This document shows positions 1,431-21,067 of a DNA stretch of 21,564 bases, in pieces. The notes under the pieces are model-generated. The model did no database searches, was not told the origin of the DNA, and saw only the letters and a list, made by a program, of their open reading frames with translations. The number at the start of each line of letters is the position of its first letter. The stretch's first letter is position 1. Location: the IMG/VR virus record IMGVR_UViG_3300046355_000087, positions 1-21,564 of that record; one strand, given 5' to 3'. The stretch comes from a virus. Position numbers and translations under genes: made by a program.

Positions 1431-3407
1431 TTATCTTCTATCGTGTGTTGAATATTCAAGCGTCACAGCATCCAACGAAAACGGAGGGTCTTGACTATCT
1501 GAAACGAATTGCAACGAAACAGTAAAACCTGAGCCAATCACCTGTGTTTGGAATAGTTTCTTAAGCTTAGTGCCGTACACAGTTGTACCATAAGTAGCAG
1601 TATTACTACCATAAAAACCTACAGATCCTGCATTATTTGACAACGTAATTGTTGCTGGTTGAATGCTACCAAAGTCATCAAAGTCATATTTCAAGTTGAC
1701 TGATGTAGTTACAGAGCCTTGTGGATCTGTGTACAAGAACATTTTGTAGAAAGTCTTACGAATTCTTGGATCATTAATTGGAACGTATGGGGTGGCAAAG
1801 CTAGCAACAATGTTTGTTCCGTCAAAGCTATTACCACTTTCCATCTGATAGACATATCCGTCTTCGTTGGCAAAGACAATAGTTTCTGTTTGGTTTTTAT
1901 AATCGCTATCAGCGACATAAGCTTTAATACCAGATGTCTCAGCCCATTCAATAACAGATGTGTTATCGCCTGTCTTTTGTGTACCAAGAATACCTTTAGC
2001 ATTCTCATGAGTTATTGAAGAATTATAACCAAGCAATCTATACTGAGACTTCTGTTTAATAACAATACTGGCAAAGCTGCTGCTTGCTTGAATAAGCGAT
2101 GTCATCTCGTCTTGGATCTGTTTAGATACAACGCCGAGATTCAAGTCACCAATTTTGTCCGTAGCACTAAGCAAGCGCAAACCTTCTGGACCCAAGAACA
2201 TAACATCACCACCAATTTCTCGGATGGTGTCAGTGGCTACACAGCCAATGTGACGTGTGATTGGAAGCAATGTGAAATCAGCAAGGGTGTTACCTGTCAG
2301 CTGGTTAATTGTCTTCTCAGTAAAGATGATGAGAATTTCACGGAATACAACAAGTCCTGTGATTTGACCACCAACACCAATAACCCCTGAACCGTTTGCC
2401 GGGTTTAAATCTGTATCAGTGTAAGGAGATGTAAAGATGAGTTGATCACCTTTGGCAAAGAACATTTGATTCTTGTGGAACACGACAAACTGCGCACCAA
2501 GCAAATCTGTAGAACTGTCTACAAAGATAAAGCTATTCTGATCCCAAATAAACGGGTAACCAGTACCATTAACACCAGCAATCTTTTCTGTAGTGTTGAT
2601 GCGATATTTAGCTGTACGCAGTTTAATACCACTGCTATAGTTTGTAGACTTCCAAGTGATTGCTGCGTTGTCAGCAGGTGATGAAGCAAGTGCTGGATTA
2701 ATTGCAACAGTGGATGCACCAGCTGTGACAGTGGCATTAGCGGTGACGGTATAAATCTTCTCAATACCAGCAACAATAAATGTGTCACCAGCCTTCGGAG
2801 CATCAGTAAGACCATCAATAGCTAACGAGCTTCCTGTCTGACCTGCGCCATTAACTAGCACAGTGCCATAGGAAGGTGTATTAATTTTAGACCACCCTGA
2901 ACCACTTGTCTCATAGATGTCATTGTTGCGATAGGCAAGAACAGAGTCTTCCCAAACAGCAACGCCTTTGACAACACCACTGTGGCTTGTGAATGTGACA
3001 GCAGCCTTATCAGCAGGGCTAGAAGCCATTGACGCAGTGAGAGTTAATGTGGCTCTCTTGTTTGTATCATCATAGCTCACACCACCAGCAGCAATTGTAT
3101 ATGTGCCTGTAACACCAGTAATGGTGAATGTGCCACCATCAACAGGAGTTGTATAGATGTTAGCAATAATTAGCGTAGTGCCAGTTTGACCACTGCCGTG
3201 AACAAGCGGTTCACCATAAGCAGGAACAAAAGCATTTTTATATTTGATAAAGCCTTCAATGCGTTTATATCCACCATCCGTGGAAGGCTCAAAATTCTTA
3301 AGTAGACGTGCGCTACCGGGAGCTTGCAAGCCCTGCTGCAACGGGGATAAGTTAGTGACTAAGCCACCGCTAAATTGAAAGGGATAGGTTTGCCATGCGT
3401 CAGCCAT
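1431..3407 (-). CDS. Tail tube/nozzle-like protein (T7 gp12 type)
   Basis: A 658-residue protein whose opening (FSGGLVTNLSPLQQG, then SARLLKNFEPSTDGGYKRI) matches the GG...NFxP..GGxxRxxGF pattern of T7 gp12-like nozzle and related short-tail hub proteins. The centre (FREILIIFTEKTINQL, GPEGLRLLSATD) fits the beta-propeller-like body of such proteins. Two related beta-rich insertions lie at about residues 64-141 and 178-253. Both begin GxGQTGxxL and end ASSPADxAAxT, so a module of about 76 residues has been duplicated. The length is close to that of gp12 (about 790 in T7). The ATG overlaps the stop of the upstream 240-residue tail gene by one base (TAATG), so translation is probably coupled. 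The predicted site of action is the distal end of the short tail. P22 gp10-like hub is an alternative name. Confidence 0.7.
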   Translation of the reverse strand: MADAWQTYPFQFSGGLVTNLSPLQQGLQAPGSARLLKNFEPSTDGGYKRIEGFIKYKNAFVPAYGEPLVHGSGQTGTTLIIANIYTTPVDGGTFTITGVTGTYTIAAGGVSYDDTNKRATLTLTASMASSPADKAAVTFTSHSGVVKGVAVWEDSVLAYRNNDIYETSGSGWSKINTPSYGTVLVNGAGQTGSSLAIDGLTDAPKAGDTFIVAGIEKIYTVTANATVTAGASTVAINPALASSPADNAAITWKSTNYSSGIKLRTAKYRINTTEKIAGVNGTGYPFIWDQNSFIFVDSSTDLLGAQFVVFHKNQMFFAKGDQLIFTSPYTDTDLNPANGSGVIGVGGQITGLVVFREILIIFTEKTINQLTGNTLADFTLLPITRHIGCVATDTIREIGGDVMFLGPEGLRLLSATDKIGDLNLGVVSKQIQDEMTSLIQASSSFASIVIKQKSQYRLLGYNSSITHENAKGILGTQKTGDNTSVIEWAETSGIKAYVADSDYKNQTETIVFANEDGYVYQMESGNSFDGTNIVASFATPYVPINDPRIRKTFYKMFLYTDPQGSVTTSVNLKYDFDDFGSIQPATITLSNNAGSVGFYGSNTATYGTTVYGTKLKKLFQTQVIGSGFTVSLQFVSDSQDPPFSLDAVTLEYSTHDRR

Positions 3408-17216: not shown

Positions 17217-17489
17217 TCACCATTTAACTCGGTCCGACCAGTATGCGGCTGACATCTTACCCTTGTCAATATTCTTAGCATGACGAGCTTCAAAGCTTTT
17301 CTTACGAGCCTTCTCAGACTCTGTTGTTGGATTGGCTCCAGCACCTTTAACACCTTGCTGTCCAAACCTAATAAGCTTCACCACATCACCTTCTTTAGCC
17401 AACACAGCATGACTCTTTGTTGGATGCTTAGGCGTTGCTTTAGGTTTATTGTAACCAGCAAACTCTTCTTGTCCACGTTTAATTGGCAT
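17217..17489 (-). CDS. Small basic conserved phage protein
   Basis: A 90-residue protein with the conserved core VVKLIRFGQQGVKGAGANP followed by KKSFEARHAKNIDKGKMSAA and YWSDRVKW at the C-terminus. I recognise this block from many phage genomes, usually near packaging genes; the function is not established. It is Lys/Arg-rich, soluble and without membrane segments. The N-terminus MPIKRGQEEFAGYNKPKATP is polar and likely flexible. It overlaps the 89-residue gene by 11 bases, so translation is probably coupled. Together with the 60- and 79-residue proteins it forms a run of basic proteins opening the late operon. Confidence 0.7.
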   Translation of the reverse strand: MPIKRGQEEFAGYNKPKATPKHPTKSHAVLAKEGDVVKLIRFGQQGVKGAGANPTTESEKARKKSFEARHAKNIDKGKMSAAYWSDRVKW

Positions 17490-17748
17490 ATCGATGTACC
17501 CCTTTACGATCTTTCCAACCTTCAGCCTTCATAGCAGCCTCCACTCGGTCTAACGGAAAATAATATCCTGTACGTTTTTCTAAAGCAGCTCTTACAAAGT
17601 AAACATCTGAATGTGGAATGTGAACATTGTCTAACACTCCCCTGTTCATAGCTATATAGATTTCAGAGACAACGGAATAGGGTTTAGTATTTAACACCCC
17701 TTTAGATTCCAACTGTTCTCTTGTAGACAACAAATCAATGTTCTTCAT
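17479..17748 (-). CDS. Conserved protein, first gene of the leftward operon
   Basis: An 89-residue protein with the conserved core YSVVSEIYIAMNRGVLDNVH followed by IPHSDVYFVRAALEKRTGYY and FPLDRVEAAMKAEGW. The alternation of helices and the VEAAMKAEGW end suggest a small winged-helix-like or helical domain, which could bind DNA; this is inference. I recognise the pattern from phage genomes but know no function. It is the promoter-proximal gene of the late operon. The ATG at 17748 follows AGAAAGAAAAC, a weak Shine-Dalgarno. The predicted leftward promoter lies 85 bases upstream. Confidence 0.65.
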   Translation of the reverse strand: MKNIDLLSTREQLESKGVLNTKPYSVVSEIYIAMNRGVLDNVHIPHSDVYFVRAALEKRTGYYFPLDRVEAAMKAEGWKDRKGVHRYAN

Positions 17749-17805
17749 GTTTTCTTTCTAATCAACAACCAATGAGTGTGTTTCACTTGTCGGTGTCGAA
17801 ATGGT

Positions 17806-17931
17806 CTTCATAGATCTTCATAGTTTGTAGATAGTATAGAATGCTTTAGATCTTCTATGAATATCTATGAGAATAAATAATAGTAATAAGAAGTTTCTTA
17901 AGAATGCTTCAGAACTATGAAGTCTTCATAG
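17806..17931. repeat. Cluster of CTTCATAG/CTATGAAG half-sites around the late promoter
   Basis: CTTCATAG occurs at 17806-17813 and 17816-17823, ten bases apart. CTATGAA and CTATGAG lie at 17855 and 17865, again ten bases apart and in the opposite orientation, covering the -35 region. At 17915-17931 the half-sites meet in a perfect palindrome, CTATGAAG-T-CTTCATAG. The one-helical-turn spacing and promoter overlap suggest an operator array for one regulator. Confidence 0.6.
17833..17861 (-). promoter_or_regulatory. Candidate leftward late promoter
   Basis: On the minus strand, -35 TTCATA (17861-17856, 4 of 6 consensus), a 17-base spacer and -10 TATACT (17838-17833, 5 of 6). It lies 85 bases upstream of the first gene of the leftward operon and within the half-site cluster. 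The weak -35 would suit an activated or repressed promoter. Confidence 0.5.
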
Positions 17932-18549
17932 CCCCCCTACCCCCATAGGATGGAGTGTTACACACTTGCGAAAGGCTTGTCAAGCTTTATTTTTGTTTAT
18001 TTTACATGTGTAACCTTTAGGTTTAGTTTGTAACAAATGTGTTGTACTCATAGGTTGCTGTTGAGTGATGTACTCTGTGTCGAACTGCATGTAGCATATC
18101 ATAGCCTCTAGAAACGATTATAAGGCACATTGTAGCCGACTTCTTAGTTTGGGAATAGCAGCATAGTGTGAAGGCTGTTTAGCTCGTTGTAGAGGCTTTA
18201 AATTAATGTGGAGTGGAGCAGAGGCTGTGTATATGCTTTTTTACCTATGTGGTTAACAACTTCATTTTCCTGATTTTAGGACGAGGCTGTATACAAATAG
18301 CGCCCTACCCCCGGATGGCCCACGCACCCCCTCGCATGATGTGCGCTGGGGCGGGATGCGTCATGATGATGCATGTCATGGCGCAAGTGATGACATGTTA
18401 TGCATGCAATTAAACCGTGTGTGTGGAAATTCCTTTGGAATCAACAACTTAGCAGATTGTAAAAACTGATTGAGAATCAGGATTCCCTACGGGGTTGCCT
18501 ACTAAAACCATCAATTAATGACCAACGGGTCAGTAACAATCAAGGTGGT

Positions 18550-18633
18550 ATATCCACAGGGTTATCCACAACCCTCTAAAAGTTATCCACAGCTTAACCA
18601 AAGTTATCCACAGCTTAACCAAAGTTATCCACA
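18550..18633 (+). other. Candidate replication origin: phased DnaA boxes
   Basis: Four perfect TTATCCACA boxes start at 18562, 18583, 18604 and 18625, all in the same orientation and each exactly 21 bases apart. A one-mismatch box, ATATCCACA, lies at 18550. The last three boxes are embedded in a longer repeat, AGTTATCCACAGCTTAACC, so the array is a set of iterons. TTATCCACA is the strongest known binding sequence of bacterial DnaA. The 21-base period places all boxes on the same DNA face. AT-rich sequence follows at about 18780-18860. Confidence 0.75.
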
Positions 18634-18692
18634 GCCTAAAGAGATCCGCACACGTTACGAAGTGTCGGAACATTTCAACAACTACCGACATA

Positions 18693-18709
18693 TTGTTACT
18701 ACGTAACAA
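18693..18709. promoter_or_regulatory. 17-bp palindrome, possible operator
   Basis: TTGTTAC-TAC-GTAACAA, perfect 7-bp arms with a 3-base centre, 60 bases to the right of the last DnaA box. Size and symmetry fit a dimeric repressor site. It has no T-run, so it is unlikely to be a terminator. The bound protein is unknown. Confidence 0.4.
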
Positions 18710-18799
18710 AGAACAACACAGCAAACAAAACGTTTCACAGTACTACTTTCAGCTTCATCACACTGTCAATCCATCCAGTAATCGAAATGTATTAATCAA

Positions 18800-18869
18800 C
18801 TTAAGACTTTCATAATCGCTTTTTATATGACAACTCCGTTGGCATCTTAAAAAGCTTGAAAGTCTTAAG
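18800..18869. repeat. Long interrupted hairpin 1 in the hub
   Basis: Perfect 13-bp arms CTTAAGACTTTCA (18800-18812) and TGAAAGTCTTAAG (18857-18869), then a 5-base/1-base internal loop, then 8-bp arms GCTTTTTA (18818-18825) and TAAAAAGC (18848-18855), leaving a 22-base loop. In total 21 pairs. A weak rightward promoter (TTAAGA, 17 bases, TATATG) overlaps its left arm. Confidence 0.7.
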
Positions 18870-18894
18870 ATCTGCGTACGTCATGTGCAACCCT

Positions 18895-18979
18895 ATGTCT
18901 TTCATTTAACAGAAATAGATTTCCTTCTTTGTTTACGAAGAAGGAAAGATCTATTTCTTCTTAGTTAAATGAAAGACAT
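18895..18979. repeat. Long near-perfect hairpin 2 upstream of the first rightward gene
   Basis: Arms of 16 bp (ATGTCTTTCATTTAAC, 18895-18910, with GTTAAATGAAAGACAT, 18964-18979), 10 bp (AGAAATAGAT with ATCTATTTCT) and 9 bp (TTCCTTCTT with AAGAAGGAA) stack around an 8-base loop. In total 35 pairs, interrupted only by bulges of 5 and 2 bases on the right arm. It ends at the base before the AAAGGA ribosome binding site of the gene starting at 18993. As RNA it would be a good RNase III substrate; as DNA it could extrude a cruciform. Confidence 0.8.
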
Positions 18980-18992
18980 AAAGGACAAAACG

Positions 18993-19136
18993 ATGGAAAA
19001 ATTGCTTGCCAAGTACCGCTCAGAACCAACCGACAAAAATGCTTTGAAGGTCAAAGCGTATTACATCAAGCATCCCTTTGCTGGTTTGTTGCTAAGCAAA
19101 GACGATCAAGCACTGGTTGCCAAGTTGGTCTACTAA
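18993..19136 (+). CDS. Small protein, first gene of the rightward operon
   Basis: A 47-residue protein: MEKLLAKYRSEPTDKNALKV, then KAYYIKHPFAGLLLSKDDQA and LVAKLVY. AAAGGA lies 7 bases before the ATG, an excellent ribosome binding site. An in-frame ATG at 18970 lies inside the upstream hairpin and lacks such a site. The protein is helical and slightly basic; Leu spacing in the C-terminal helix suggests a protein contact surface. I recognise no domain. The upstream hairpin ends immediately before the ribosome binding site, so RNA structure or processing probably controls its translation. Being first in the early operon, a host-takeover role is possible, but nothing in the sequence shows this. 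Confidence 0.65.
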   Translation: MEKLLAKYRSEPTDKNALKVKAYYIKHPFAGLLLSKDDQALVAKLVY

Positions 19137-19210
19137 GGGTTTATCCCTAGTGGCATGGCAAAATTGTCGTGCTACAGTGCAACCTCATTTCAACGAGTCG
19201 CCAGACTCAC

Positions 19211-19222
19211 TTCCTAAAGGAA
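19211..19222 (+). promoter_or_regulatory. Self-complementary Shine-Dalgarno cassette (copy 1)
   Basis: TTCCTAAAGGAA: the AGGA ribosome binding site pairs with the TTCC just before it. Followed by ACAAATC and the ATG at 19230. Confidence 0.55.
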
Positions 19223-19229
19223 ACAAATC

Positions 19230-19949
19230 ATGTTCAAGTCAAAATCGTTACTTTCAGTGTCAGCCGATGCCAAAACTGTCAAGGGTGAAACCTTAGGTTT
19301 CTTAACTGGCATCCTCTACCTTGCTCCAGCCACTACTACCAAGTGGAATACTTGTTCAATGGCATCAATTGCCCAATGCGACAAAGCATGCTTATTCACT
19401 GCAGGACGTGGTGCAATGTCAACAGTGGCACAGGGTCGCATCAATAAGACAATCTGGTTCTTTGAAGAACGAAACAGCTTTATGCAACAGCTTGCAAAAA
19501 ACATTCGATCACTGAAAGTGAAAGCGAAAAACAAAGGGTTAACTTTGTTAATTCGTTTGAACGGAACCAGTGACATTCGTTGGGAAACCGTAGGTTTTAC
19601 TGACGTTGATGGCACTGAATATGTAAACATATTTGCCGCATTTCCCGAAGTGCAATTCTACGATTACACCAAGGATGCAAATCGTAAAGAGTTGCCAAGC
19701 AACTACGATCTGACTTTTTCCTACAGTGGTGTTGAGGGTTTCCAACCCTTCGTTGAGATCGCTGTTACTAAGGGAATGAGAATGGCAGTGGTGTTCCGTA
19801 AGGAACAGGACATCCCTAATACCTTCAAAGGTATTCCCGTTGTCTCTGGTGACAAAAGTGATGTTCGTCATCTTGATGATCAAGGTGTGATTGTCGGCTT
19901 GTATGCCAAAGGTAAAGCGAAGCTTGATCAATCTGGTTTCGTTGTCTAA
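19230..19949 (+). CDS. Conserved phage protein with three-Cys motif (DUF7227-like)
   Basis: A 239-residue protein. The N-terminal region KTVKGETLGFLTGILYLAPA is followed by a cysteine motif C42-x7-C50-x3-C54 (CSMASIAQCDKACLFTAGRG). Next comes a helix starting INKTIWFFEERNSFMQQLAK. Then strand-like motifs follow in order: LIRLNGTSDIRWE (107-119), VQFYDYTKD (141-149), LTFSYSG (161-167), MAVVFRK (185-191) and SGDKSDVRHLDD (206-217). It ends GVIVGLYAKGKAKLD. The pattern is that of a phage family I recall as DUF7227, with no proven function. Repeating strand/helix order suggests an alpha/beta barrel, and the three Cys could hold a metal or Fe-S cluster; both are inference. It is the largest early product and adjoins the putative origin, so a replication-linked role is possible. 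Confidence 0.7.
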   Translation: MFKSKSLLSVSADAKTVKGETLGFLTGILYLAPATTTKWNTCSMASIAQCDKACLFTAGRGAMSTVAQGRINKTIWFFEERNSFMQQLAKNIRSLKVKAKNKGLTLLIRLNGTSDIRWETVGFTDVDGTEYVNIFAAFPEVQFYDYTKDANRKELPSNYDLTFSYSGVEGFQPFVEIAVTKGMRMAVVFRKEQDIPNTFKGIPVVSGDKSDVRHLDDQGVIVGLYAKGKAKLDQSGFVV

Positions 19950-20490: not shown

Positions 20491-20652
20491 ATGTCTGACA
20501 ATTGGACACCCATCATCAAAGATCTTGAAGAGCAAGGCATCACTGCCTACCATCTACATCCTGCCAACGGTTGCACAATGGTCAGCTACGGCAGGGTTGT
20601 TGCCTACTACTATGTAGTAGATGACCAAGTTGTTGACGTAATTTATGACTAA
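20491..20652 (+). CDS. Small early protein, unknown function
   Basis: A 53-residue protein: MSDNWTPIIKDLEEQGITAY, HLHPANGCTMVSYGRVVAYY and YVVDDQVVDVIYD. It has a helix followed by three beta strands and an acidic end. I recognise no family. It is too short for confident homology, but the excellent ribosome binding site (AAAGGAAACAAAATG), the 11-base spacing after the 61-residue gene and the codon use in line with its neighbours support it as real. It ends 19 bases before the next ATG, with the shared cassette between. Confidence 0.6.
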   Translation: MSDNWTPIIKDLEEQGITAYHLHPANGCTMVSYGRVVAYYYVVDDQVVDVIYD

Positions 20653-20653
20653 C

Positions 20654-20666
20654 TTCCTGAAAGGAA
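20654..20666 (+). promoter_or_regulatory. Self-complementary Shine-Dalgarno cassette (copy 4)
   Basis: TTCCTGAAAGGAA: arms TTCCT and AGGAA, loop GAA, the clearest copy. It decides the start at 20672 over an in-frame ATG at 20645 that lies before it. Confidence 0.6.
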
Positions 20667-20671
20667 ACAAC

Positions 20672-21067
20672 ATGCAACCCACTAAAGTGTTCGTCTATTT
20701 CAACCTGCACAAGAAGTGCTTCAGCGTTAAGGCACTGGAAGGTGCAATGAAGGGCAGGGTGATAGCCCATCGCCATGATGTGTTGCTCTACGATGCCACC
20801 TTCAAGGTGTCTGAGGCTGGACGACAACGGGTTCTTCGTGAGAAGAAAAAGAATGTTCATGCTGGTGTCTGTGGCACTTGGGATGAACGCTCTTTCGACA
20901 GTCAAACGATTGATCAGATCATCGTCATTGGTCAAGCCATTATGTACAACCCCTATAAGTACGACAGCTTCGTCACCCTGTATGGCGAAGCCCCTGTCAA
21001 AACTGCAAACATTGCTGCTCTGTCTGCCATCAATCAACGAGCAACCATCCGTATTCACAACGCCTAA
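20672..21067 (+). CDS. Conserved phage early protein, unknown function
   Basis: A 131-residue protein from the ATG at 20672 (MQPTKVFVYFNLHKKCFSVK). An earlier in-frame ATG at 20645 overlaps the upstream gene and lacks a ribosome binding site. The block GRVIAHRHDVLLYDATFKVS followed by EAGRQRVLREKKKNVHAGVC is well conserved in phage genomes I know, but has no demonstrated role. Beta strands come first, then a basic helix (RQRVLREKKKNVH) that could contact nucleic acid, then another beta/alpha region (PYKYDSFVTLYGEAPVKTAN). No catalytic motif is evident. It is followed after 11 bases by the next gene, whose cassette contains its TAA stop. Confidence 0.7.
   Translation: MQPTKVFVYFNLHKKCFSVKALEGAMKGRVIAHRHDVLLYDATFKVSEAGRQRVLREKKKNVHAGVCGTWDERSFDSQTIDQIIVIGQAIMYNPYKYDSFVTLYGEAPVKTANIAALSAINQRATIRIHNA

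Follow-up and report, generated by a model that had tools for sequence, protein, structure and literature searches.

The stretch of DNA analysed here (the window) is a 21,564-bp IMG/VR record, a fragment (~21.6 kb) of an uncultured water phage related to the HMO-2011 group. Genes are directed leftward from position 17748 and rightward from position 18969, and the 1.2 kb in between harbour an array of DnaA boxes, which is separated from the rightward operon by two strong hairpins. A previous, sequence-only reading had placed the array between divergent operons and beside two long hairpins, and this was borne out by the gene map and by folding. The region contains the following features:

17479..17748, minus strand: leading gene of the leftward operon (89 aa), without a Pfam match; located left of the region in relatives too
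18518..18706, plus strand: ORF spanning the array, with a repeated YPQ peptide, judged not to be a gene
18519..18532, unstranded: small palindrome TGACCAACGGGTCA, the sequence of which varies among relatives
18544..18558, unstranded: GGTGGTATATCCACA, according to the alignment the window version of the inverted repeat GGTGGTATAT..ACCACC of the relatives
18550..18558, plus strand: ATATCCACA, 3 bp 5' of the first perfect box ("double DnaA box"), overlapping the conserved inverted-repeat element
18562..18633, plus strand: array of four perfect DnaA boxes (TTATCCACA) at 18562, 18583, 18604 and 18625, with a 21-bp period
18800..18869, unstranded: hairpin 1, a long palindrome, z -6.9, 28 pairs in the family model
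18895..18979, unstranded: hairpin 2, an 85-bp near-perfect inverted repeat, z -11.9, ending just 5' of the ribosome-binding site of the rightward operon
18969..19136, plus strand: opening ORF of the rightward operon (55 aa), without a Pfam match and probably translated from the in-frame ATG at 18993
19230..19949, plus strand: GP88-family gene (PF17338, phrog_1617), adjoining the region in relatives

The four perfect boxes in one orientation and 21 bp apart, which the sequence-only reading had reported, were confirmed, as was the presence of ATATCCACA at 18550; in addition, we noticed the gap of 3 bp between the latter and the first perfect box. Gaps of 2-3 bp between boxes are preferred by E. 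coli DnaA in vivo (PMC11317965), and the 18550/18562 pair thus has the preferred geometry. The statement that the repeat unit extends beyond the box also holds, since Tandem Repeats Finder gives the 21-bp unit AAAGTTATCCACAGCTTAACC (2.9 copies, 97% matches, 18579-18639); the spacer of the first box differs from the other spacers in the array. Two of the repeat spacers contain TTAACCAAA, a box with two mismatches which starts 2 bp after a perfect box and may be a coincidence. Under a second-order Markov model of the whole window, both strands included, 0.21 perfect boxes are expected in the window, and the expected number of four-box clusters within 72 bp is ~8e-12, so that a chance origin of the array was rejected. 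Beyond the array, no perfect DnaA box was found in the window.

According to its large terminase, the window is nearest to HMO-2011-type phages, with 74% to an uncultured spring phage (MW202701) and 60-78% identity to named members of this type (Roseobacter and SAR116 phages). The homologous terminase is accompanied by a similar gene order in the left arm. The HMO-2011-type group is characterized by a DNA polymerase with a DnaJ central domain (PMC9038755). In the relative G001, a PolA was found which gave no DnaJ match, and primase and helicase are fused. The polymerase gene is absent from the window, which stops short of its own replication genes, and the replisome is deduced from the relatives. 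A host search against genome contigs matched only unrelated metagenome bins. A homologue of mycobacteriophage L5 gp82 (PF25735) is encoded at 20645-21067 of the window, where the DNA is similar to mycobacteriophage genes over ~180 bp; G001 has such a homologue near the same region. C-rich stretches are present at 17930-17946 (ATAGCCCCCCTACCCCC) and 18301-18315 (ATAGCGCCCTACCCCC), and a similar pair exists in the relative L213.

Conservation was analysed in 44 loci collected by the hairpin-2 pattern, a few of which are the same contigs as the terminase relatives L138, L139 and L141. In these three, boxes were found at the same intergenic site and both hairpins are present. Altogether, 38 of the 44 hairpin-bearing relatives have box matches (at most one mismatch) close upstream of the hairpins. 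In the typical layout, direct boxes are located at -171 and -149 from hairpin 2 and an inverted box at -113, which corresponds to a distance of 22 bp between the direct boxes and a further 36 bp to the inverted one; some relatives carry an additional upstream pair at -218 and -197. In 32 distinct sequences, identity amounts to 95.7% in the box columns versus 69.7% in the spacers, and random placement of three 9-column blocks matched the box identity in 0 of 20,000 trials. This footprint, in which the box columns are far more identical than the spacers, identifies the 9-mer as the selected unit, and, as judged from the alignment, the box cluster is maintained by natural selection in the relatives.

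Conservation of box number and spacing had been suggested as a check; the exact architecture of the window is not maintained. The spacing is 21, 22, 26 or 36 bp in relatives, and box number and position differ, the window array being farther out (-333 to -270 from hairpin 2) and lacking the inverted box. Upstream of the boxes, the relatives have the inverted repeat GGTGGTATAT..ACCACC, which covers the spot matching window position 18550. It appears that in the window lineage an older set of two direct boxes and one inverted box was replaced by the 21-bp tandem array.

No boxes were found at this site in L213, L216 and L217. In this interval, the first two of these boxless relatives carry different direct repeats; in L213 (5824-5959), they comprise TTTAAGTATACAAT, which is present twice, and the 31-bp TCCCGATCAGGACA repeat. 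The L213 repeats are perhaps a swapped initiator site. In a tree of the GP88 gene box presence is clustered, yet several gains or losses are required. Most other terminase relatives and named marine phages examined are devoid of boxes. An exception is the more distant relative G005, with two perfect boxes in a divergent intergenic region and neither hairpin 1 nor hairpin 2.

The two hairpins differ in the use of G-U pairs. In hairpin 1, 16 pairs have changed on both sides and none on one side only, and 98.6% of the cells pair. In the predicted folds of 27 distinct sequences, G-U accounts for none of the 761 plus-strand pairs and for a single minus-strand pair. RNA helices usually evolve through G-U intermediates, and because such intermediates are lacking here we interpret hairpin 1 as palindromic DNA. 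The pattern comes from related sequences and is suggestive of a structure at the DNA level, such as a cruciform, a single-strand hairpin or a protein site. Perhaps template switching keeps this palindrome perfect. The predicted folds of hairpin 2 have G-U at 15 of 473 plus-strand pairs and at 1 of 458 minus-strand pairs; thus, with G-U mostly on the plus strand, this hairpin could have a role in the RNA transcribed rightward. An Rfam search with the hairpins gave sub-threshold matches only, and a known RNA family was rejected for this reason.

The GP88-family protein encoded next to the region was considered as a possible initiator, and its predicted fold gives no such indication. The best structural alignments of this fold are nearly all with radical-SAM enzymes (NifB, QueE, viperin), at Z ~6 and 3.7-4.5 A over ~150 residues, with Z below the conclusive level. 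The cysteines C42, C50 and C54 are invariant and have a non-standard CX7CX3C spacing. The GP88 family may possibly be an unrecognised radical-SAM-like phage family. GP88 genes and box arrays co-occur on five contigs (L073, L084, L121, L315 and L377) and on none of the control contigs, a link which is too weak to be claimed. In L073, the array (1297-1389) is located in a divergent intergenic region ~500 bp upstream of the GP88 gene and comprises five perfect and two near boxes with gaps of 2-3 bp and longer. The virus contig L315, which also encodes GP88, has five boxes at ~3026-3310 beside approximately eight copies of an A+T-rich repeat (ATATAAGCATATTCAT), an oriC-like arrangement.

Which protein binds the boxes? 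DnaA domain IV (PF08299) was not found in 13 related records, while a control matched in 10 of 14 genomes, and on this basis a phage-encoded DnaA was rejected. G001 is a circular relative of 58 kb with a 127-bp overlap of its contig ends, and its early region encodes PolA, a 5'-3' exonuclease, a Toprim-DnaB (primase-helicase) fusion, ribonucleotide reductase, Thy1 and an integrase. The ORFs scanned in this early region gave no Pfam match to an initiator or helicase loader, Rep or lambda O-type included. Since no box-binding domain of DnaA is encoded in the 13 related records, the DnaA of the host is the likely ligand. The proposal that host DnaA is recruited or titrated here therefore stands in so far as selected boxes with helical phasing occur in a control region and host DnaA probably binds them, but the data do not separate recruitment from titration.

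To place the 21-bp period in a broader context, viral sequences were scanned for two boxes 10-40 bp apart. This yielded at least 120 stretches, and 110 pairs were left after removal of duplicates. Among the matches listed, the spacing of these 110 pairs peaks at 11-13, 20-22 and 32 bp and is phased with the helix (~10.5 bp; Rayleigh R 0.69, p ~1e-23); of the listed spacings of at least 15 bp, 24 of 54 fall at 20-22 bp versus 6 expected. Pairs of a control 9-mer, the DnaA box read backwards, show a 3-bp coding period and only a weak helical signal. Inside long ORFs were 33% of the box clusters versus 64% of the control clusters. The A+T excess in the neighbourhood of viral arrays as a class is only ~2%. 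Because viral box pairs are phased among the matches listed, the 21-bp distance seems to reflect a general preference, to which the window conforms in a regular manner; four boxes in a row at exactly 21 bp were found only in L045 among the loci surveyed.

The assertion that many lytic phages lack such arrays proved too strong, as several lytic groups carry them. Similar arrays are present in the lytic isolates Shigella phage A7, Enterobacter phiEap-1, Lactococcus 949 and WRP3, Klebsiella PA45-9 and Vibrio BD1; in the named phages searched with the array, the arrays matched and no homologous flanks were found. In the T7-like phages A7 and phiEap-1, the array is at most ~180 bp away from the record end. 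Studiervirinae (T7-like) arrays are located at 22-135 in L276 and at 1509-1612 in L277, within ~180 bp of a genome end.

Based on these observations, we regard the array as a cis-acting site for host DnaA which is most likely part of the phage replication origin, a reading that we hold with about half of our confidence. Host DnaA would bind the boxes, a well-supported step, and, as the phasing suggests, would oligomerise on one face of the helix. It would then help to melt the A+T-rich DNA that lies between the array and the rightward operon and can form the hairpins, and the phage primase-helicase and DNA polymerase would load at the opened DNA. Titration of DnaA may occur as a side effect or even as the main effect, and early transcription may be under DnaA control.

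In line with an origin, the box cluster exceeds chance and is conserved in relatives, and its geometry, a 21-bp phase with one 3-bp double box, fits cooperative DnaA binding. We also counted in favour the location at the divergent junction, the covarying palindromes, the early region of G001 with its lack of a recognisable initiator, and the GP88-bearing contig L315, where five boxes lie beside A+T-rich direct repeats. The boxless relatives L213, L216 and L217 were counted against. The hairpin DNA belongs to the least stable ~0.3-1.2% of the genome (100-bp windows), and in some genomes other sites rank higher; beside the window array there is no tandem A+T-rich unwinding repeat. A minimum of GC skew at this place had been suggested as a check, and indeed, in five near-complete relatives, the cumulative minimum is 34-155 bp from the start of hairpin 2. 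However, transcription diverges at the same point, and the maximum, where it can be placed, is not opposite but ~21 kb away at a convergent gene junction. Thus, the skew is confounded by gene orientation and cannot decide on the origin, and we rejected it as proof. Our confidence does not exceed an even balance mainly because T7-like phages carry arrays close to a genome end, and T7-type replication is not known to use DnaA. The presence of an array is therefore not sufficient to indicate an origin.

A broader explanation is that phased arrays are a general device for the capture of host DnaA, gained repeatedly by unrelated phages with an own replisome, and that some of them, including those near the genome end of T7-like phages, serve to disarm host replication or to handle incoming DNA rather than to fire an origin. 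We put this forward tentatively, as a proposal that is clearly less likely than not.

A fairly improbable alternative is that the array functions as a DnaA sink with no origin, the phage copies binding host DnaA and blocking new rounds of host replication. On the E. coli chromosome, DnaA is titrated by datA. Such a role would agree with the arrays near the genome end of A7 and phiEap-1, lytic phages which are not expected to need DnaA, and with the 3-bp gap of the 18550/18562 pair, which is favoured by DnaA in vivo. This double box is, however, the only one in the window, and double boxes with a gap of 2-3 bp occur in 0 of the 44 hairpin relatives. Moreover, the boxes keep a fixed position with respect to the palindromes and the third one is inverted, which suggests an architecture and not a sink.

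We consider it rather unlikely that DnaA bound to the array mainly activates or represses the divergent early promoters. DnaA control of transcription was described for lambda pR, and both the intergenic position between divergent operons and the end of hairpin 2 just before the first rightward ribosome-binding site would suit this role. Against it, the region 17700-19300 contains only one sigma-70-like match versus a mean of 4.0 in shuffled sequences, and no promoter can be placed relative to the boxes. Very improbable in our view is a DNA-entry signal, in which boxes and palindromes pause or anchor incoming DNA. The model for it is the T5 injection stop signal, in which DnaA boxes are combined with palindromes, repeats and inverted repeats (PMC13250531). 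Within the annotated signal of T5, we found a single perfect box as well as near boxes at a distance of 12 bp. The linear T5 genome, however, has this signal in its terminal repeat, whereas G001 and G013 are circular assemblies with overlaps of 123-127 bp, and there is no sign of a fixed end here. Finally, the tandem 21-bp array with an open frame through it might be taken for iterons of an own phage initiator, matching the DnaA box by accident, or for a coding repeat (YPQ), but this is likewise very improbable in view of the selection on the 9-mer itself, the inverted copy, spacings in relatives that are not multiples of three, an array ORF with no homologue there in relatives, and the lack of a Rep-type initiator among the early-region ORFs scanned in G001.

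Taken together, the DnaA-box cluster in this phage control region is real and under selection, and it is most likely part of a DnaA-assisted origin. In the open-access literature searched, there was no report on the use of host DnaA in this phage group. New are the conservation and architecture of the cluster in this group, the paired DNA palindromes and the general helical phasing of viral box pairs. To our knowledge, it is not known how most phages with own replication enzymes choose their start site, and a 500-bp region with footprinted boxes and covarying DNA palindromes offers a way to test this. From the wider spacing signal, it seems that viruses use host DnaA more commonly than assumed.

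Compared to known systems, the window array resembles those of the lytic phages A7, phiEap-1, 949, WRP3, PA45-9 and BD1 in having several perfect boxes, often with a spacing of 20-22 bp and mostly outside annotated genes, while those belong to other phage groups, occupy other genome positions and have no homologous flanks. With the T5 injection stop signal it shares a noncoding location in phage DNA and the combination of DnaA boxes with palindromes and direct repeats; that signal is part of a terminal repeat of a linear genome, whereas here the site is a divergent operon junction and the assemblies of relatives are circular. Consensus boxes, one pair of them with a 3-bp gap, are reminiscent of datA and the double DnaA boxes of E. 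coli, but the spacing in the window is mostly 21 bp and the relatives lack pairs with 2-3 bp gaps. P1 oriR and RK2 oriV are DnaA-dependent plasmid origins. Like these and E. coli oriC, the array consists of clustered perfect boxes with helical phasing in an intergenic region, beside DNA that is predicted to be of low stability; it differs from them in being a putative origin that would serve a phage-type replisome, as deduced from the relatives, and in having long covarying palindromes alongside.
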